A stretch of 23,287 nucleotides of DNA. It comes from a bacterium (GTDB taxonomy: Bacteria; JAMOTN01). Both the position numbers and the translations under genes were made by a program. The notes beneath the pieces were generated by a model that had not been told where the DNA came from, made no database searches, and saw only the letters and a program-made list of their open reading frames with translations. Below, piece by piece: positions 2,588-19,762 of this stretch. The number at the start of each line of letters is the position of its first letter. The first letter of the stretch is position 1. The stretch is from contig JAMOTN010000064.1 of assembly GCA_027062325.1 (NCBI GenBank), positions 1-23,287 on the forward strand, written 5' to 3'.

Positions 2588-3780
2588 TTTTCTACCAACT
2601 CCCTTTGTTTCATCTCAGACAATCCATTTTCAGAAGAAACAACTTCAGCAATCAAGCGCTTCTTCAATACACCTACCTCTTTTCCAAGAAGTCTTACTCC
2701 CTTCTTAGCTGCAATGTTTATTATATCGTTACCCGACAATTTTACTTGTTCAACTCTCTCTTCAATAACCTCAACCATATCAGTAAACAACCTTGAAATT
2801 TTCTTACCCATAGGACTCAAAATAATATACAATTTGTAAGCTTCTTTTAAATTGTCGATTAAAGCTAACTCTTTCAAAACTTCAATTTCTTCTAAAACCC
2901 TCATCTCCTTCTTTGTAAAAGCAAAACGCTTTGCCAATAGTTCAATGTCATCTTGATCCAATCGTGAGTCAAGAATCATGGACAAAATCGTTATCAAAAA
3001 AGCTTCATTATTAAATTCTTTTCTGCTCCGCAAAAAATTTTCAATCAAATCTCTATTCGGCTTTTTCAAAAAATGAACCACTTCATTCGGAACAAGATTG
3101 TACTCATATATAAATTCTAAGCAATTTATAAGCTTATCCTCATCCGCAATCCGCTCAAACTCTGATCTAATCCTAGCGGGGGTAAGTCTAGATATGTAGT
3201 TTTTATCAAGTAAAATTCGATTAAAAGTTTCTTCTTCAAACTCAAATTCAAAACGCTCTTTATAGCGAACAGCCCTGTAAATCCTGGTTGGATCCTCAAC
3301 AAATGAATCTCTTTTCAAAAAACGTATCAATCTCTTTTTTAGATCCTCTCTACCCCCAAAGGGATCAATTAGCTCCTCAGGCTCTGGCCATAAGCGATAA
3401 GCCATCGCATTTATTGTAAAATCTCTGCGTTTCAAATCATCAACAATTGTCTCTGCTTCACTCACCTTTGGCAAAACTGAAGGTTCAGGATAATACTCTC
3501 GTCTGAATGAAGCTACATCTATCAACTTACCAATCTTTACTACAAAATACTCATCCCAAAATTCCATATCCTCAAGGGGAATATTCAACTCTTCCGCCAG
3601 AAGAATAGCAAAGTGCTTTCTCGAACTTGAAACAACTAAATCGACATCCTTAAACTCCTCTTCTCCTCCTTTTAAAAGCCAGTCTCTTACAACTCCTCCA
3701 ACAAGGTAAAGCTCTACACCCAACTGTTCAGCAATCTTCTTAGCCTTCTTCTTCAATATTGGTAGATTTACCTTCTCCAC
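2566..3780 (-). CDS. cca: CCA tRNA nucleotidyltransferase / poly(A) polymerase family protein
   Basis: A class II nucleotidyltransferase of 404 residues, expected to add or repair the 3' CCA of tRNA. The head domain carries YLVGGVVRDWLL (about 26-37) and the metal-binding DVDLVV (about 45-50). Then come RRDFTINAMAYRL (about 118-130), LIDPFGGREDLKKR and the neck motif DPTRIYRAVRYKERF (about 163-177). The C-terminal tail is helical, with no clear HD phosphohydrolase motif. Sequence alone cannot separate a full CCA enzyme from an A-adding enzyme or poly(A) polymerase. The start is uncertain: GTG 3780 overlaps the upstream GerW-family gene by 41 nt and has a weak ribosome site, while TTG at codon 9 is possible. 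The next gene overlaps its end, indicating translational coupling. Confidence 0.88.
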   Translation of the reverse strand: MEKVNLPILKKKAKKIAEQLGVELYLVGGVVRDWLLKGGEEEFKDVDLVVSSSRKHFAILLAEELNIPLEDMEFWDEYFVVKIGKLIDVASFRREYYPEPSVLPKVSEAETIVDDLKRRDFTINAMAYRLWPEPEELIDPFGGREDLKKRLIRFLKRDSFVEDPTRIYRAVRYKERFEFEFEEETFNRILLDKNYISRLTPARIRSEFERIADEDKLINCLEFIYEYNLVPNEVVHFLKKPNRDLIENFLRSRKEFNNEAFLITILSMILDSRLDQDDIELLAKRFAFTKKEMRVLEEIEVLKELALIDNLKEAYKLYIILSPMGKKISRLFTDMVEVIEERVEQVKLSGNDIINIAAKKGVRLLGKEVGVLKKRLIAEVVSSENGLSEMKQRELVEKWVSCKN

Positions 3781-4129
3781 CTTTTAATCCACTACTCCCC
3801 TTCTTTCCAAGAGAAGAAAGCACTCTTTCTATCTTAGAGGGAATATCACTTTCTGAAATCAAATCTATCCAACTTTTAGCTTCTTTAACCCTTATGAATC
3901 GAACATCATTGCCACTAACTACCAGAAAACCAACCGGTTCCACACTAACAACTCCTCCACTTCCTCCCACCTCTGGATCCCCTTTGCCGCCAACAGCATA
4001 GCTAAAACTCACCTTACTCACGGGGATCACAGACACACTTCCTATCACAATCTCTTCCCCTATAACCAGATTTGCTTTTGCCGTTTCTGTAAGCTGCTCA
4101 AACAAAGCTATTAGTGTTTTTTCTATCAT
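3740..4129 (-). CDS. GerW/YtfJ-family protein
   Basis: A 129-residue protein whose core, VIGEEIVIGSVSVIPVSKVS followed by FSYAVGGKGD, GGSGGVVSVEPVGFLVV and a short hydrophilic end, matches the Spore_YtfJ (GerW) family. The family is named after a Bacillus spore protein but occurs in many non-sporulating bacteria, where its function is unknown. No sporulation gene is seen in this window, and the diderm context argues against that role here. The C-terminal 25 residues are Gly/Lys/Glu-rich and overlap the downstream nucleotidyltransferase reading frame. The ATG at 4129 has GGTGG about six bases upstream. It lies 18 nt after the coiled-coil gene. Confidence 0.8.
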   Translation of the reverse strand: MIEKTLIALFEQLTETAKANLVIGEEIVIGSVSVIPVSKVSFSYAVGGKGDPEVGGSGGVVSVEPVGFLVVSGNDVRFIRVKEAKSWIDLISESDIPSKIERVLSSLGKKGSSGLKGGEGKSTNIEEEG

Positions 4130-4147
4130 GCATAACCACCATCCGGG

Positions 4148-4573
4148 TTATTTATCTTCTGAAGAATTATTTTTTTCATCCTCCTTAGGAGTCTCAGAAG
4201 AGTCCTGCTCTGAAACTACTTTTTCAACAACAGGTTCTCCTTTCTCCGTATTCTCTACACTTTGAGAAAGAGCCTCCATTTTCCTCTTCAAATCTTCTAT
4301 CATTCTCTCTATATCATCTAGGTCTTTCACATACAATTGAGCTTTCTCTTCAAAGTCTGCTCTTTTATTCTTGCTGTATTCATAATACAACTGTCCCAAC
4401 ATAGCAAACTTTGCTTCCCTCTCTTTCTCCAATTCAGCAATTCTAAGCTTAATCTTTCCTATTTCCGTCAAACGCTTGGCCTCCTCTGTAGCCTTCTCTG
4501 TAAACTTAACTGTTGCGTCTTTTGCTTTATTTGCAAAATCTTTCACTTTTTCAAATACGTTTTTAAAATCCAT
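4148..4573 (-). CDS. Conserved coiled-coil protein of unknown function
   Basis: A 141-residue, charged, almost wholly helical protein without signal peptide or membrane segment. Residues 1-40 form an amphipathic Lys/Ala-rich helix (FANKAKDATVKFTEKATEEAKR). Residues 40-105 hold a second helical pair including LRIAELEKEREAKFAMLGQLYYEYSK, which resembles a segment found in small zinc-ribbon/coiled-coil proteins of other bacteria, but no cysteines are present here. The last 35 residues are acidic and Ser/Glu-rich, probably disordered. The ATG at 4573 follows a GGGGGG ribosome site at good distance. It is the first gene of the operon leading to the GerW-family protein and the nucleotidyltransferase. 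No function is proposed. Confidence 0.72.
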   Translation of the reverse strand: MDFKNVFEKVKDFANKAKDATVKFTEKATEEAKRLTEIGKIKLRIAELEKEREAKFAMLGQLYYEYSKNKRADFEEKAQLYVKDLDDIERMIEDLKRKMEALSQSVENTEKGEPVVEKVVSEQDSSETPKEDEKNNSSEDK

Positions 4574-4632: not shown

Positions 4633-4638
4633 TTAAAA

Positions 4639-4662
4639 GGGCAAGCTCTAACGAGCTTGCCC
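4639..4662 (-). terminator. Intrinsic terminator of the flgM-flgN / outer-membrane operon
   Basis: A perfect 10-bp stem (GGGCAAGCTC with GAGCTTGCCC) has a 4-nt loop and is followed on the minus strand by TTTTAATTT. It lies downstream of the flgN stop and just upstream of the next operon's promoter region. The plus side also ends in a T-rich run, so it could work in both directions. Confidence 0.85.
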
Positions 4663-4666
4663 TATA

Positions 4667-4719
4667 TTTTCATAGTGGATGGGAATCCTGCGAAACTCGT
4701 AGGAATCAACAGTGTCAAA
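4667..4719 (+). repeat. Inverted duplicate of an internal lpxA segment (copy in flgN 3' UTR)
   Basis: Read on the plus strand, 4667-4719 equals the lpxA sense sequence found on the minus strand at 5914-5862: 52 of 53 positions match, including an uninterrupted 45-bp block at 4675-4719. The only difference is A at 4674 where lpxA has G. Because flgN is on the minus strand, its transcript carries this block as antisense to lpxA mRNA. The block starts at the flgN stop codon and ends 4 nt before the terminator stem. It contains no open frame of its own and no transposon ends. Confidence 0.95.
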
Positions 4720-5122
4720 GTGATAATTCTAAACGTCCATAATTTCCCAACAACTCCTTCATTCTCTCAAGACGCGCAATCTTTCCTCTCAAAACTCTTT
4801 TGAATATCCTAATTTTTTCCACTACCTCAACGCTAACCCTGCTGAGCTCTTCCTCAAACTCAAAAAAACCACTCTCTTTCAAAACACTTTCTTTATCCAA
4901 AGTACTGCCTTCAATACGCTCCTTCATCGCTTGAATTGAATTTCTCAAATAGATATAGTAGTTTCCCCACAATTTTTCAAACTGCATCAACCTCTCGGCA
5001 TAACTTTCCCAATTTCCCTCTTCTACAGCCTTTTCTACATCAGCAAAAGCAGCCTTCAACTCACCCAAAGCCTCTCTTAAATCATTCACCTGTTTTCTTA
5101 CTTCAAGAAGCACCTCACTCAT
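4715..5122 (-). CDS. flgN: FlgN-like flagellar export chaperone
   Basis: A 135-residue all-helical protein with long heptad-like helices (LLEVRKQVNDLREALGELK; RVLRGKIARLERMKELLGNYG) and no signal peptide. Its size, helical content and position straight after an FlgM-like gene fit FlgN, the cytoplasmic chaperone for the hook-associated proteins FlgK and FlgL. Sequence alone gives no unique motif, so the name rests partly on context. The ATG at 5122 was chosen because AGAGG sits about eight bases upstream; starts at 5158 and 5164 lack a ribosome site. The stop codon TGA lies inside the inverted lpxA duplicate, so the original C-terminus may have been altered when that segment arrived. Confidence 0.55.
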   Translation of the reverse strand: MSEVLLEVRKQVNDLREALGELKAAFADVEKAVEEGNWESYAERLMQFEKLWGNYYIYLRNSIQAMKERIEGSTLDKESVLKESGFFEFEEELSRVSVEVVEKIRIFKRVLRGKIARLERMKELLGNYGRLELSL

Positions 5123-5169
5123 ACTATACACCTCTACGAACCTCCACAAGGCTTTCATGAGCAACTAAC

Positions 5170-5544
5170 TTAGAAGGACATCAATCTGTCAATCACTCCA
5201 TCCTCTATCAATTTATCCGCCAACTTATCAAGATCTATTTTGTACTCTCCACTTTCCAACATTTTCTTAATTTTTTCCACTTTTTGCTCATTTATATCCA
5301 TGGTATTTTTTACAACATCAGCTGCTCTTCTCATCAAACGTATTTTTCTGACAGAATCAGCATTCTGCCCCATTAACCCTCGAGCACTTATCAAATCTGA
5401 AACGGATGCCTTCTTCCCTAAGCCTTCAGCCTTGGAAGTATCTACATCCTTACCTTTCCTCTCCAACCTCTTCTTTTCATCAATTTTGGTGTCAACGCGC
5501 CTGTATCCTCCACCTGATCCAACTCTTCCTATTCCCCCCATCAT
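5170..5544 (-). CDS. flgM: FlgM-like anti-sigma-28 factor
   Basis: A 124-residue protein whose C-terminal third (KVEKIKKMLESGEYKIDLDKLADKLIEDGVIDRL) matches the FlgM signature, the part that binds and holds the flagellar sigma factor FliA until the hook is complete. The N-terminal 40 residues are Gly- and Lys-rich and probably disordered, as in other FlgM proteins, though this one is somewhat longer than the usual 90-100 residues. The ATG at 5544 has GAGGG at suitable distance; the in-frame GTG at 5553 abuts the ribosome site and was rejected. flgN follows 47 nt after its stop. A sigma-28-like promoter lies upstream at 5606-5632. Confidence 0.82.
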   Translation of the reverse strand: MMGGIGRVGSGGGYRRVDTKIDEKKRLERKGKDVDTSKAEGLGKKASVSDLISARGLMGQNADSVRKIRLMRRAADVVKNTMDINEQKVEKIKKMLESGEYKIDLDKLADKLIEDGVIDRLMSF

Positions 5545-5588
5545 AGCAACCACCCTCTTTTTTCATCGGGTTCTCTCCTGAATCTCAT
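5541..5588 (-). CDS. Possible 15-residue leader ORF overlapping the flgM start
   Basis: An ATG at 5588 behind GGGGGGAG opens a frame MRFRREPDEKRGWLL that ends in TGA, overlapping the flgM ATG in the string CTATGATG. The arrangement would allow translational coupling to flgM. It is too short to judge by composition, and nothing else supports it. Confidence 0.2.
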   Translation of the reverse strand: MRFRREPDEKRGWLL

Positions 5589-5605
5589 TTCTCTCCCCCC
5601 TTATT

Positions 5606-5632
5606 TTTTCGTAATATTTCATCAGTTTTTTA
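5606..5632 (-). promoter_or_regulatory. Candidate sigma-28 (FliA) promoter upstream of flgM
   Basis: On the minus strand TAAA (5632-5629) is followed by exactly 15 nt and TACGAAAA (5613-5606). The flagellar sigma-28 consensus is TAAA-N15-GCCGATAA, so the -10 box matches at five of eight positions. The predicted start near 5600 would leave a leader of about 55 nt before flgM. flgM and flgN are commonly under FliA control in other bacteria, which makes the site sensible, but the match is modest. Confidence 0.35.
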
Positions 5633-5684
5633 ATAGGGGCCAGCTGCCTTTTAAAAATTAGACAACATCTTCAACATTACTTTC

Positions 5685-6452
5685 TCACCTCATAGGCTTT
5701 ACATCATCCCACTTCTCAAAAAACTCTACAAAAATCTCCCCTATTCTACCCCAACTTTTTACCTCCTTAAGAACCTCAGCCAACTTAGGTTTTTCTCTGT
5801 ATAGCTTATATACTTTTTTCGCCAGATCTATCTCTTCTTTTAAGAATCCACACCGATTGAGTTTGACACTGTTGATTCCTACGAGTTTCGCAGGATTCCC
5901 ATCCACCATGAAAAAAGGAGGAACATCCATAGTAATTTTGCTCATTCCACCAACCATGGCATATTTCCCAATTTTTCTAAACTGATGTACTCCAGCCTTT
6001 CCAGCTATAACTGCATAATCATCCACAATAACATGTCCTGCTAACATGGCTGCCTGAGACATTATAACTTCATTTCCTATAATGCAGTTGTGGGCTATAT
6101 GAACATGTCCCATTAATAGATTTCTATTCCCAATTATTGTTTTTTCTCCTTCACCAGTCGCAACATGAATGGTTACAAACTCTCTTATTACATTTTCATC
6201 TCCTATTACAACGCAGCTTTCTTCTCCTTTATACTTTAAATCTTGGGAATCTTCTCCAATAATTGCATAGGGGTATATCTTGTTGCTTTTCCCTATAACT
6301 GTGTTTTTTCTAATGATGACTCCTTGCATAATTTCTGTATCTTTCCCTACTTTAACCTCTGGACCTATGTAAGCAAACCTTCCAACTTTAACTCCGTCGT
6401 CTAATTCAGCCCTCTTATCTACATAAGCAGTTTTATCAATATAAACTGCCAT
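5685..6452 (-). CDS. lpxA: UDP-N-acetylglucosamine acyltransferase LpxA
   Basis: Catalyses the first step of lipid A synthesis, transfer of a 3-hydroxyacyl chain from acyl carrier protein to UDP-GlcNAc. The 255-residue protein has a hexapeptide-repeat left-handed beta-helix (residues 5-180, repeats such as IGPEVKVGKDTEI), the catalytic-His region GHVHIAHNCIIGN near 114-126, then AGHVIVDDYAVIAGKAGVHQF and the helical C-terminal domain after DVPPFFMVDGNPAKLVGINSV. The length is normal. ATG 6452 was preferred over GTG 6461 because GAGG lies eight bases upstream of it. It follows lpxC-fabZ by 15 nt. lpxB and the UDP-diacylglucosamine hydrolase, which often follow lpxA, are not in this window; flgM follows instead. 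An internal 53-bp piece is duplicated in reverse at 4667-4719. Confidence 0.96.
   Translation of the reverse strand: MAVYIDKTAYVDKRAELDDGVKVGRFAYIGPEVKVGKDTEIMQGVIIRKNTVIGKSNKIYPYAIIGEDSQDLKYKGEESCVVIGDENVIREFVTIHVATGEGEKTIIGNRNLLMGHVHIAHNCIIGNEVIMSQAAMLAGHVIVDDYAVIAGKAGVHQFRKIGKYAMVGGMSKITMDVPPFFMVDGNPAKLVGINSVKLNRCGFLKEEIDLAKKVYKLYREKPKLAEVLKEVKSWGRIGEIFVEFFEKWDDVKPMR
5862..5914 (-). repeat. lpxA source copy of the inverted duplicate
   Basis: This segment encodes the conserved LpxA stretch MVDGNPAKLVGINSVK at the junction of beta-helix and C-terminal domain. Since that stretch is conserved across LpxA proteins, lpxA is clearly the origin and 4667-4719 the derived copy. The two copies are about 1.14 kb apart and in opposite orientation, enclosing flgM and most of flgN. 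Confidence 0.95.
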
Positions 6453-6467
6453 TCCTACCACCTCATA

Positions 6468-7805
6468 TTAGTTGCAGACCTGCAGTTTTTTGAACTCATC
6501 TGCTAAAAGGGAGAATGTAAACTCTCCTTCTGTAACAACTTCTGCATTGACATAGGCCGTTCCCTTAACTTTGCAAATTCTTGCCTTTTTCATCAACAAT
6601 TCAACTTCCATAATCAAAGTATCCCCCGGTTTTACAGGCTTCTTAAAACGAACTTTATCGATTGCTGCAAAAAATGGGGTAATATTCTTCAAATTAAAAC
6701 TCTTCAAAACAAGCACACCAGCACTTTGAGCCAATGCTTCCACTATCAAAACCCCAGGCATTACAGCCCTATGTGGAAAATGTCCTGTAAAAAACGCTTC
6801 GTTGCCTGTAACATTCTTTAGTGTGACAATCTTCTTACCTTCTTCAAAGTCAAGAACTCGATCCACAAGCAAAAATGGATAACGATGTGGCAGCAACTCT
6901 TTTATCTCCTCAAAATTCATACGCCTCACACACCTCTTTGCCAACCATTTTACTTTTTTAGCAAGAGCAACGTTATACTTATGACCACTTCTTTCCAACA
7001 GCCATTTTCCATCTAATTTGACACCTGCTAAAGATATATCCCCTAAAAAGTCCAAAATTTTGTGACGTACAAACTCATTTTCCCATCGCAGAGAATCTTT
7101 AACAACTATCCCGTCCTCCTTAACAAGGATAGCATTATCTAAACTTGCTCCTTTTATTAACCCCTTCTTCTTCAAAAAACCCAGCTCTTTTTCAAATCCA
7201 AAAGTCCTGGCTGGGGCTATATCTCTCTTGAAATTCTGCCAGGTTAAATTAAATTTAAAGGTTTGAATTCCTATAGGTGTTCCCCTATAATCCAGCAAAA
7301 AACTCACTTCAAAACCAGGAGAAGGGACATAAGTTGCTTTTACTCTTTTTGATTCATCTTCCACTGATAATGGTGTCAGAAAATACCCTTCACCCTCCAC
7401 CTTCTCCGCGATAAATTCTTCTATTCCAACATTGTCAATAGCTTCAGCCATTACTCTAGCACTTCCATCAAAAATCGGAAACTCTTCACCGCGCACAAAC
7501 TCAATTACAGCACTATTAATTCCTGCTGCAAACAGAACAGCCATCAAATGCTCAACGGTATCTATCCTCTCTCCCTCCGAATGCAATGAAGTACCTCTAA
7601 AAACGTCAACTACATTATCTACATCAGCTTTTATATAAACTCCATTTTTGAGAAACCTTATTTCACCACTTTCATCAGGGTGAATTATCACCCGTGCCTC
7701 TTCTCCAGTGTGCATTCCAATTCCTTCAAATTCAATTTTATCCTTTACAGTTCTAAAAATGCCCTTCCAAAACCTTTTCTTTACATCAAATGGCATATCT
7801 TTCAC
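6468..7805 (-). CDS. lpxC/fabZ: Bifunctional LpxC-FabZ: UDP-3-O-acyl-GlcNAc deacetylase / 3-hydroxyacyl-ACP dehydratase
   Basis: One frame joins two enzymes. Residues about 18-290 are LpxC, the zinc deacetylase committing lipid A synthesis: [22 protein letters not shown] (zinc ligand His86), [27 protein letters not shown] (zinc ligands His248 and Asp252) and the catalytic SGHKYN (His275). Residues about 296-445 are FabZ, the dehydratase of fatty acid elongation: [36 protein letters not shown] with catalytic His342 and Glu356. Both active sites look intact. Such fusions are known from Bacteroidetes, so the fusion is unusual but not new. GTG 7805 is chosen because GGAGG lies eight bases upstream; ATG 7811 is the alternative. 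The longer frame from 7880 would overlap the preceding gene and add no LpxC sequence. Confidence 0.95.
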
Positions 7806-7824
7806 AAGCATCTCCTCCAATGAC

Positions 7825-8439
7825 CTAATCAAAGTAAAAGATAAATCCAAAACGCAAGTAGTCCTTATCGTAGTAATCATCTATCTTTACATACTCTAGC
7901 TTAATATCCAAACCGTAAACAGCTGAAAAATCCAAACCATAATACTTTGTTCCACCTTTACCAAAGTTGACATAAAATTTAACAGTCGGAAAAGGCTCCC
8001 ATTCAAGTCCACCCATTACTCCATAGTCAATCTTATAAACTCGTGAATCCCCAAAGTCAAAGTACTGTTTTCCAACTCCTAACAACATATTAAAAGACTG
8101 ATCAGTATAAAATTTAATAAAAGCTCTGGAAGATTTGTCAGAAAACTGACCTAGTAAATCGAAACTATCAGAGAGAAAATACCTGAAGTTAAAACCAGCG
8201 TTCCCTTTATCTTTAGATACAACAAATGCTCTGAGAGTAAAAGTGTCCGTTGACTTTAAAAGAATAGACATTCCCTTCTCGTAGTTTTCTTCATTCTCTG
8301 CATCAAATCCCAAGTAAAAATCCACCCTAGATTCTCCAACCTGGGGAACAACACCATATACATAAGATAAATTGTGAGAATAAACTACAAAATTAGTAAA
8401 AAAACACAATAATGCTAACACAATTCCCCATTTAAACAC
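7825..8439 (-). CDS. Putative small outer-membrane beta-barrel protein
   Basis: I do not recognise this 204-residue protein. Residues 1-21 look like a signal peptide ([13 protein letters not shown]). The rest consists of alternating hydrophobic/polar strands rich in Tyr, Phe and Gly separated by charged turns (for example [49 protein letters not shown]), and it ends [11 protein letters not shown], like the closing strand of an outer-membrane barrel but one residue past Phe. About eight to ten strands are plausible. It starts at GTG 8439 behind GGGGGG. It is embedded between lpxD and lpxC-fabZ with short gaps (about 20-40 nt), so it is expressed with LPS and outer-membrane assembly genes, but a specific role cannot be stated. 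Confidence 0.65.
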
Positions 8440-8480: not shown

Positions 8481-9560
8481 TTATAAATAATCAGCTTGAG
8501 CCAATTCTTTTAAAATTTTAAACAACTCTGGAAGCTTTTCTAGGACTTTCTGAATTCTCAAAAATTTCATATGAGGAATCGCAGGATACCCAGAAACCGT
8601 CTGACCTGCTGGAACATTATTTATAACTCCACCTTTAGCTGTAACTGTAACATCATCCCCAATTTCAATATGCCCAGAAACACCACTTTGCCCTGCTAAC
8701 TTAACTCTGTTTCCAATCTTAGTACTCCCTGCTATCCCAACTTGAGCCACAATTAAGCACTCATGACCAATTTTTACATTATGGCCAACGTGTACCAAAT
8801 TATCTATTTTGGTCCCCTTCCCAATAACAGTATCGCCAAAAGTTCCTCTATCTACCGTGACATTTGCCCCAATTTCTACATCATCTTCTATTACAACTCT
8901 ACCCCGTTGTGGTATTTTGTAAAAGCCATCCTCTGCTCTTGTATAACCGTATCCATCAGAGCCTATAACTGTTCCTGAATGAATGATCACTCGATTTCCT
9001 ATTTTTGAAAATTCGCGAAGAGTTACATTAGGATAAATTACACAATCTTCTCCGATCTCTACTCCAACTCCTATATAAACATGTGGATATATAATTGTTC
9101 CCCTTCCAATCTTTACTCCACTTTCAATAACTGCAAAATCCCCAATTCGGACATCTTCTCCGATCTCTACATTAGAAGCTATCTTGGCATTTGAGGAAAT
9201 ATCTTTAACTGGATGCTCAAAAGGATAGAAATGCTCTAACAACTTAGCAAAAGCCAAATCTGCATTCTTGACAACTACGAAAGCACGGGCAACATCTTTT
9301 AATGAACCATTGTTTTTTTCTATATCTGACCACGTTCGTTCCGAAACTATCAAAGCCCCGACTTTTCTACCGTTATCCTTAATTTTTCTCACAACAGAAA
9401 GGTCTCTTGCAAAAATCACACTCTCCTCATCTGCATTTTCGATAACATCAACTTTAGATAAAACAACATCTTTTTCGCCTACCAAATTTAAAGCTTCAAC
9501 AATCTCCTGCACTTTAGATAAAGTGATAACTTCTCTTGGTTTCCCCTTCAAATCAAACAC
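8481..9560 (-). CDS. lpxD: UDP-3-O-(3-hydroxyacyl)glucosamine N-acyltransferase LpxD
   Basis: Adds the second 3-hydroxyacyl chain in lipid A synthesis. The 359-residue protein has the N-terminal uridine-binding domain (residues 1-100, including [14 protein letters not shown]), hexapeptide beta-helix repeats from about 115 ([26 protein letters not shown]), the sequence [18 protein letters not shown] and the catalytic-His segment [17 protein letters not shown]. It then has [19 protein letters not shown] and a C-terminal helix. Length and motifs are normal. GTG 9560 is chosen because AAGGGG lies about eight bases upstream; GTG 9569 is too close to it. The gene follows ompH after about 75 nt, in the usual bamA-ompH-lpxD order. 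Confidence 0.96.
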
Positions 9561-9636
9561 TTCACACACCCCTTAAAGCAAATGTATGCCACATCTTTTA
9601 TTTCAACTATTATTTTCGGAAGTTTACAACATCATA

Positions 9637-10155
9637 TTACTTCATTACTTTTCCAACATATTTACTGTTCAAAAGTTTTATCAAATCATCAGTAACATCA
9701 ATTCCACCAAATACCACAACTCTTCTATCGAATATGGCAGCCAATCCCTTTTGCTTGGCAAGCTCTTCTGCAGCTTTTATTATTACATCTTCAAGTTTCT
9801 TTTCATAATTTCTTCTCATTTGATCAAGCTGGGCATACATGCTGTCCCTCATCTGCTGAAGCTGCATTAATCTCTGATATAACTCATCCTCCTTCTTCTT
9901 CTTCTCATCCTTACTGAGCTTTTTATCATTTGCCCAACTATCTCTCCACTTCATAATTTTATCCTGCTCTTGTTTTAGTTGATCTTTAATAGCATTTTCC
10001 TTATCTTTCAAATAACTTATTACCTTCTGAGTATCCGTATAACTCTGGAAAACTTTGTTAAGCTCAGCATACCCAAACTTAAAACCACCTTTCTTCCCAG
10101 CAAATGAAACAAAAGCAAACAACACAGCCACTAACAAAACCATCGTCTTCTTCAT
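9637..10155 (-). CDS. ompH: OmpH/Skp-family periplasmic chaperone
   Basis: Skp-type chaperones hold unfolded outer-membrane proteins in the periplasm and pass them to the Bam machinery. The 172-residue product has a signal peptide (MKKTMVLLVAVLFAFVSFA). The mature start FKFGYAELNKVFQSYTDTQKV matches the family's strand and first helix. A long charged coiled-coil follows (about 45-125), forming the tentacles, then a return strand AIFDRRVVVFGGIDVTDDLIKLLN. Size and layout are typical. ATG 10155 has AGGAGG nine bases upstream. It lies 15 nt after bamA, the classic neighbour pair. Confidence 0.92.
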   Translation of the reverse strand: MKKTMVLLVAVLFAFVSFAGKKGGFKFGYAELNKVFQSYTDTQKVISYLKDKENAIKDQLKQEQDKIMKWRDSWANDKKLSKDEKKKKEDELYQRLMQLQQMRDSMYAQLDQMRRNYEKKLEDVIIKAAEELAKQKGLAAIFDRRVVVFGGIDVTDDLIKLLNSKYVGKVMK

Positions 10156-17539: not shown

Positions 17540-18628
17540 TTGAATCTTGGAAATATTAAAGATTATTACAAGATACTAGGCGTATCTGAAAATGCAACTC
17601 AAGATGAAATCAAAAAAGCATTCAGACGCTTGGCTAAAAAATATCATCCAGATATGAATAAATCAAAGGAAGCGGAAGAAAAATTCAAAGAGATAAATGA
17701 AGCTTATCAAGTCTTGTCAGATCCAGAAAAGCGAAAGCAGTACGATGCCATGAGAAAAGGGCAATTTTGGAACTTTGGAGGTTTTGGTTCTGGTTCTGCT
17801 GGAACCCAAGGTTTTTCAGGGTTTGGTGCATCACAATCAGCAAATTTCGACTTCAATTTTGATAACTTTGGATTTGACTTTGGCGATATATTCTCAAGTT
17901 TCTTTGATTTCTCTGACTTTGGCAAAAAACAGAGGACGCGATCTTCTAAACGCACTCAAACCCCTGTATATCAAGTTGAAGTTCCATTTGAAGTTGCTGT
18001 AAAGGGCGGAGTTATCGAAGTTCCAATAACCCATGAAACGATATGCCCGGTATGTCACGGAACAGGCTCAGAACCTGGTGGTAAAGATATCAAGTGCCCT
18101 GTCTGTAATGGAACCGGATTTATCTCTAAAAATACAGGAAATTTTTTTATGCAATCAACTTGTCCTCGTTGTGGAGGTCGAGGGCTTATAAATACCAATC
18201 CATGCAAAACTTGTGGGGGGAGAGGAGTAGTTACACAAACAAAAAGAGTAAAGGTTAGAATTCCTGCAGGAGTACGTGAAGGTCAGATCTTGAGACTGCC
18301 AAAACTTGGTGTGCGACTTCAAGTATTTGTTAAGAAAGATTCCCGTTTCAGAAGAGTCGGAAACGACATATATACAACATATAAAATCAACGCATTGAAA
18401 GCAATTGTTGGCACTGTAATAGAAGTTGAAACTCCTCACGGAAAAACAGTCAAAGTTAAGGTTCCTGCAGGTATTCAACCGGGGCAAAAGTTGCGTCTAG
18501 CCGGCCTTGGAATAAATGGCGGTGATATGTTTGTAGTTGTGGAAATAGAAATTCCTAAAAATTTAAAAGAGAAACATCGTGAGATGATAAAAGAAATAAT
18601 AAAAGATATTGAAAAACAAGGAGGATAG
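17540..18628 (+). CDS. dnaJ: Chaperone DnaJ (Hsp40)
   Basis: Co-chaperone that delivers unfolded proteins to DnaK and stimulates its ATPase. The 362-residue protein has the J domain at about 5-70 with the HPD motif in [10 protein letters not shown] Gly/Phe-rich region follows at about 75-130 ([18 protein letters not shown]). Next is the zinc domain with four CxxCxGxG repeats ([32 protein letters not shown]), then two C-terminal beta domains. The Gly-rich loop usual in the first of these, about ten residues ending GDL, is absent: LRLPKLG runs directly into [15 protein letters not shown] 17540 is chosen because GGAGG lies eight bases upstream; TTG 17525 would have no ribosome site. dnaK and grpE are not adjacent. 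Confidence 0.95.
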
Positions 18629-18681: not shown

Positions 18682-19762
18682 ACTTCTTCTCATTCTCTTT
18701 CTTTGTCTCTTCTGTGGCAGTAGAAATTATGGTTACATCTTGACGTTTTATTTCTACCCTCTCCTCCTGAACTTTTATTGGCTTTAGCCTTGCTATCTTT
18801 ATCTTCAGAATTCCAGACTTACTTTTCAAAACTATCTCATCAGGCGTTAAATCAACAACTTTGTAACTAACATACACCCCGTTCTTAACTTCAATATTGA
18901 TTGAATCACCTTTTCCTACCACATCGGTACTCTTAAGTTTTCCCGCTGCATCTTTTATGCCGATAAAAGCTCTCATTCCACCCTTAGCGTAATAATAACC
19001 ATAATAGATAAAATTTTTACTAGCAATTAAACCTGCTGTAGTAAAACCTGAACTGCTACTACCTTGAGTAGCCCCCCCAACACTAGTAGAAGTAGTTGTA
19101 ATTCCTAGTTCTGCCCTGTATTCCAAAGCTACAGATTGCTCTGCCAATTGTTTGGATTCCTTTAGCAAAGCTATTGCTTTTAAATAATTTAGATTTTCAT
19201 AAGCCTTCTTAGCCTCCTCAAATTTTTTCTTCGCTTTCTTATAGGTTGTTTTTTGATATTTATCTTCTCCAAGTTTATTTATATCTTCTAATAACGTAGA
19301 AACTTCCTCTATTATCTTCTCTGCTTCTTCCCTGAGCTTAAGATTCTTTTTAACATCTCTAAAAACGTTCCTTACACCACTCAAATTTGGAGGAGTCACA
19401 TACCCCTGTTTAAAAAGTAGTTCAAAATACACGGGGTTAACATTTAACCTTTCTAATTTCTTATCTGAAACACTCTTCAATCTCATCAACAAACTAAATC
19501 CCTGCGTTCCCTTATCTTGTAAAGATGTAGTTCCACTGGAAGCAGGAGTTTTTCCCTTTCTTTTTACAACCTTTTTCCTACGAGAAGGAGCTGTTCTTTT
19601 TTTTGAATGCGCAGTTGCCTTTTTAGCTCCACCACCCGACCTCTTTTTAAAAAGATTGGCATAAGCTGAAGATACAGGTTTCTCCTCCTTCTTTTTACCA
19701 CAACCTGTTATAGCTAAAAGTAACAACACTAATAAAAAGCATACTAAACTACGCATTTTCAT
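18680..19762 (-). CDS. pilP: PilP-like type IV pilus lipoprotein with enlarged N-terminal part
   Basis: A 360-residue lipoprotein: the signal peptide ends AITGCG with lipidated Cys at about 21. A basic, low-complexity linker follows (about 25-85). The middle is helical (about 100-215) and includes the coiled coil KAKKKFEEAKKAYENLNYLKAI. A Ser/Thr/Gly stretch comes next, then a C-terminal strand domain (about 235-330; GDSINIEVKNGVYVSYKVVDLTPDEIVLKSKSGILKIKI) that resembles the PilP/GspC homology fold linking the PilN-PilO pair to the secretin. Typical PilP is about 170 residues, so the helical insertion is unusual. Position after pilO supports the call; identity by sequence is only moderate. 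ATG 19762 is preferred to TTG 19786 on signal-peptide shape. pilQ does not follow. Confidence 0.6.
   Translation of the reverse strand: MKMRSLVCFLLVLLLLAITGCGKKKEEKPVSSAYANLFKKRSGGGAKKATAHSKKRTAPSRRKKVVKRKGKTPASSGTTSLQDKGTQGFSLLMRLKSVSDKKLERLNVNPVYFELLFKQGYVTPPNLSGVRNVFRDVKKNLKLREEAEKIIEEVSTLLEDINKLGEDKYQKTTYKKAKKKFEEAKKAYENLNYLKAIALLKESKQLAEQSVALEYRAELGITTTSTSVGGATQGSSSSGFTTAGLIASKNFIYYGYYYAKGGMRAFIGIKDAAGKLKSTDVVGKGDSINIEVKNGVYVSYKVVDLTPDEIVLKSKSGILKIKIARLKPIKVQEERVEIKRQDVTIISTATEETKKENEKK

Follow-up and report, generated by a model that had tools for sequence, protein, structure and literature searches.

A short inverted copy of lpxA at the 3' end of a flgN-like gene, probably a template-switch scar

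The 3' end of a flgN-like gene in the draft bacterial genome GCA_027062325.1 consists of a 53-nt, nearly identical inverted copy of an internal segment of lpxA, and we consider it probable that this segment is a short templated insertion, a mutational scar left by a strand switch in which lpxA was the accidental donor. The window, that is, the whole stretch of DNA analysed (23,287 nt of contig JAMOTN010000064.1), contains the following features around the copy, all coordinates being those of the window.

4638..4663, minus strand: terminator-like hairpin (11 pairs, loop of 4, interrupted U tract), from a hairpin search and predicted folds
4667..4719, minus strand: recipient copy, inverted, of lpxA; 3' end of the flgN-like gene, stop codon included
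4715..5164, minus strand: flgN-like gene, named by position only; probable ATG start near 5122
4720..5861, no strand: spacer of 1142 bp separating the arms (flgN-like gene, flgM and the 3' end of lpxA)
5170..5553, minus strand: flgM, anti-sigma-28 factor (PF04316, 46.1 bits; TIGR03824, 43.1 bits)
5685..6461, minus strand: lpxA, acyl-ACP--UDP-N-acetylglucosamine O-acyltransferase, intact (TIGR01852, 290 bits)
5862..5914, minus strand: donor segment within lpxA, codons of MVDGNPAKLVGINSVK, inside the continuous TIGR01852 match (residues 8-235)

The gene names lpxA and flgM, given in an earlier note on this DNA, are borne out by the profiles; flgN is not, as no FlgN family match was found in Pfam or NCBIfam profile searches and the name was inferred from the place of the gene after flgM. 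The three genes lie on one strand. The gap between lpxA and flgM (5553-5685) contains short overlapping open frames (e.g. MKYYEKIRGERNEIQERTR), which might be the remnant of a small gene. Elsewhere in the neighbourhood, a single reading frame at 6468-7880 fuses LpxC and FabZ, a GerW/YtfJ-type protein (PF09579) is encoded at 3740-4129 although the genome also has genes for lipid A, and a small coiled-coil-like protein (4148-4573) adjoins the GerW/YtfJ-type gene.

An inverted-repeat search of the window retrieved the two arms, 4667-4719 and 5862-5914, as 53 nt of 98% complementarity lying 1142 nt apart. The earlier description of 4667-4719 as the reverse complement of lpxA 5862-5914 is thus exact (52 of 53 bases match), and the match is far beyond chance: the lone mismatch is at 4674, the exact run otherwise shared is 45 nt, and an exact 45-nt reverse-complement match has a chance expectation of ~9e-19 given the window's length and composition. 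A search of the genome gave no third occurrence of the 53-nt copy, which is present only twice. The donor arm is internal to lpxA (nt 548-600 of the 777-nt frame), and the recipient arm begins at the last codon of the gene that follows flgM. As previously proposed, the copy provides the flgN-like gene with its stop codon, a TGA at 4717-4715 on the minus strand that falls within it. A terminator-type hairpin does follow directly, at a distance of 3 nt and not the 4 nt first given; its 11-pair stem (G-C in 7 of the 11 pairs) fits the claim of a terminator, with the reservation that the U tract after it is interrupted (TTTTAATTT).

We take lpxA as the donor because its TIGR01852 match runs continuously through the segment. 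The copying would therefore have run from lpxA into the flgN-like gene, and the event is probably young. Searches of genomes and viral contigs for close relatives gave none, the best relatives of this lpxA in other genomes being ~50% identical. When the 53 nt are removed in silico, the junction of the flanks reads TTA TCA C|TA TAG, in what is a formal reconstruction of the empty site, and the flgN-like protein would end in LELSL followed by a stop, the same as at present. The insertion was thus neutral at the protein level, since these C-terminal residues and the stop are unchanged without the copy. On this reconstruction, the stop codon would overlap the foot of the hairpin, and the insertion therefore shifts the hairpin to ~50 nt from the stop. 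The copy may also have replaced other sequence rather than being a pure insertion. A plus-strand mini-gene carried by the copy was considered and rejected, because the LpxA residues in its frame are there by descent only.

These features are those of an already known kind of mutation, to which the locus probably belongs. Monttinen and Loytynoja (2022, PMC8794818) describe template switching as a process related to DNA replication that yields reverse-complement copies, and in which one event can be enough to form a perfect RNA stem; quasipalindrome-associated template switching has been studied in E. coli (PMC7202029). As in the mutations treated there, the lpxA copy is short, inverted, local and nearly identical, and the hallmark of a nearby reverse-complement copy (52/53) with an intact donor is present. 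Unlike the hairpin stems and quasipalindromes on which that work centres, its arms are 1142 nt apart and lie in two genes. The scenario would be the following: during replication or break repair, a growing 3' end that had reached the flgN-like stop codon would have switched, over ~1.1 kb, to the opposite strand in lpxA, copied ~53 nt of it and then returned to the original template. The junction sequences have at most 1 nt in common and show no clear microhomology. Some models of template switching do without microhomology at the switch points. An inversion via staggered breaks was rejected, as the lpxA frame is uninterrupted across the donor arm.

A further argument for a strand switch comes from the rest of the genome, an 81-contig draft of 1.65 Mb that is 84% complete. 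Stretches totalling 1.46 Mb were each compared with themselves, retaining inverted repeats whose arms are 40-3500 nt apart. The top three local inverted repeats were the one in the window (53 nt, spacer 1142), one in the stretch L186 (46 nt, 100% identity, spacer 383) and one in L122 (40 nt, 97.5%, spacer 967). The fourth, in L150 (29 nt, spacer 3011), fits the expected 23S rRNA processing stem, judged from its spacer length and flanking sequence and without a profile, and serves as a positive control. These three repeats stand apart, since the first 1.13 Mb contained just one other exact inverted match of at least 16 nt, between 16 and 29 nt in length. Across the 1.46 Mb, short copies of comparable identity in direct orientation or at dispersed sites were not found outside duplicated genes: direct repeats in this length range have diverged further and mostly lie in apparently duplicated genes, the rest being short weak matches, and near-identical matches between stretches are overlapping contig ends.

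In L186 the arms (9545-9590 and 9974-10019) are perfect over their 46 nt. The fliE 3' end (PF02049) is the donor, and the copy is flanked by a divergent gene and a tRNA-Arg gene (9842-9916). A promoter-like site (TTGAAG-N17-TAAGAT) before this tRNA gene lies downstream of the copy, which is therefore probably not transcribed as antisense. In L122 the donor of the 40-nt repeat (18546-18585 and 19553-19591) is rplJ (PF00466), and the copy falls inside a 345-aa ThiI-like frame, so named from a weak PF02568 match below the cut-off. Two 1-nt gaps in this repeat, apparently compensating, keep the ThiI-like frame open. All three copies are thus inverted, near-identical and 40-53 nt long, with a spacer below 1.2 kb. 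Their donors (lpxA, the fliE 3' end and rplJ) are unrelated, and so are the recipients, namely a stop codon, an intergenic site and a coding frame; the three have no target, position or transcriptional layout in common. With donors and recipients so varied, and copies always inverted and local, a strand-switch mutational process fits the data and a regulatory design aimed at lpxA does not. The earlier note had mentioned a template-switch scar as its plain alternative; with two more local inverted copies, taken from unrelated genes, this alternative has become the better supported reading. We infer a strand-switch mechanism and no selected role for the copy.

An RNA-mediated insertion is disfavoured, as the copies are always local and a profile search of the genome stretches analysed gave no match to a reverse transcriptase family. 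A further explanation is that the copy is absent from the cell, having arisen by assembly or amplification of this metagenome-assembled genome. The draft state of the sequence (81 contigs, 84% completeness) lends this some weight, and strand-displacement amplification is known to produce inverted chimeras (PMC9484634). However, unique sequence continues on both sides of both arms and lpxA is intact; the two copies differ by a substitution, so that this is no plain re-use of the same reads; the assembly consensus would have to contain both switches; and the pattern is present on three separate contigs. We therefore regard an artefact as quite unlikely.

Still harder to sustain, and in our view extremely improbable, is the idea that the copy is a mobile repeat unit of the REP or MITE type, or a recombination site that inverts the 1142-bp segment. 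The inverted arms do flank a segment, as they would at an inversion site, and an unrelated genome has a short intergenic palindrome-type repeat of about this length (L103, below). Against this, the 53-nt sequence is present in just two copies in the genome and is plain lpxA coding DNA lacking the terminal palindrome of a REP or MITE element, and inversion of the 1142-bp segment would sever the C-terminal part of LpxA. In Salmonella chemostats, spontaneous inversions, deletions and duplications occur at pre-existing repeats (PMC3411829). Short inverted repeats underlie the inversions observed there and the lpxA repeat could in principle recombine in a similar manner; unlike those rearrangements, the lpxA copy is itself probably a templated insertion.

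As controls we took 80 loci of other genomes, totalling 1.29 Mb, together with 36 stretches (0.72 Mb) drawn from four genomes. They yielded one repeat of comparable length, that of L103 in an Omnitrophica MAG (991-1043 and 1574-1626, 53 nt, 96%), a palindromic intergenic repeat whose inverted arms flank a gene. It looks like a REP or MITE-type element and was rejected as an event of the same kind, since it is intergenic and palindromic and not gene-derived. Three events in 1.46 Mb thus compare with none of the kind in 2.0 Mb of controls (p ~0.08, hand Poisson calculation), an excess that is suggestive and not significant. For this reason we make no claim that the genome is exceptional, and the process need not be special to it.

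The reading put forward in the earlier note was that of a functional antisense, in which the end of the flgM-flgN transcript would bind lpxA mRNA, either in cis or in trans, the duplex would be cut by RNase III, and expression of motility genes would lower lipid A synthesis. We consider this unlikely. That the tail and lpxA mRNA can physically pair is confirmed, the genes being on the same strand and the predicted duplex comprising 51 pairs (-97.6 kcal/mol, RNAduplex). For the proposed cis target, the long-range duplex is present in the predicted fold of a putative joint RNA running from lpxA to the terminator, and an RNase III gene was found in the genome. The terminator directly after the copy also suits this reading, the mismatch at 4674 still gives a G-U pair (a single change, which says little), and near-identity is expected under selection for pairing too. 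Nevertheless, the complementarity is not evidence of use, because inverting a piece of one co-directional gene into another creates pairing automatically. The pairing target is internal lpxA coding sequence and not the start, in a mid-gene region probably covered by ribosomes. As for a separate flagellar promoter of flgM-flgN, which the earlier note considered, no clear sigma-28, sigma-54 or sigma-70 promoter stands out in the lpxA-flgM gap, although promoters of this lineage may differ; nor was Hfq found in the genome, which is 84% complete. Finally, the genome contains comparable inverted copies that come from unrelated genes, including one that precedes a promoter-like site. A regulatory role for the lpxA copy has no specific support. 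A combined proposal, in which local inverted templated insertions of 40-53 nt arise unusually often in the lineage and at least one has been adopted as an antisense tail linking flagellar and lipid A expression, appears very doubtful to us.

The nearest regulatory precedent is icaR of Staphylococcus aureus, in which pairing of the 5'-UTR with the 3'-UTR has been shown experimentally and involves RNase III (PMC3868564). As in icaR, the 3' end of an mRNA can pair with a distant part of an mRNA, and this pairing potential is the sole icaR-type feature present. The icaR target is its own 5'-UTR and the evidence experimental, whereas the target here is internal lpxA coding sequence and the pairing is predicted.

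A strand switch thus remains the reading that we prefer for the lpxA copy, and its consequences reach beyond this locus. A single copying slip can at once give two genes an RNA complementarity of 51 pairs, a raw material from which antisense regulation could arise; the same fact is a warning that complementarity alone is no evidence of regulation. Three such scars in one small genome also constitute an uncommonly clean sample for the frequency with which bacterial forks switch strands over 0.4-1.1 kb.
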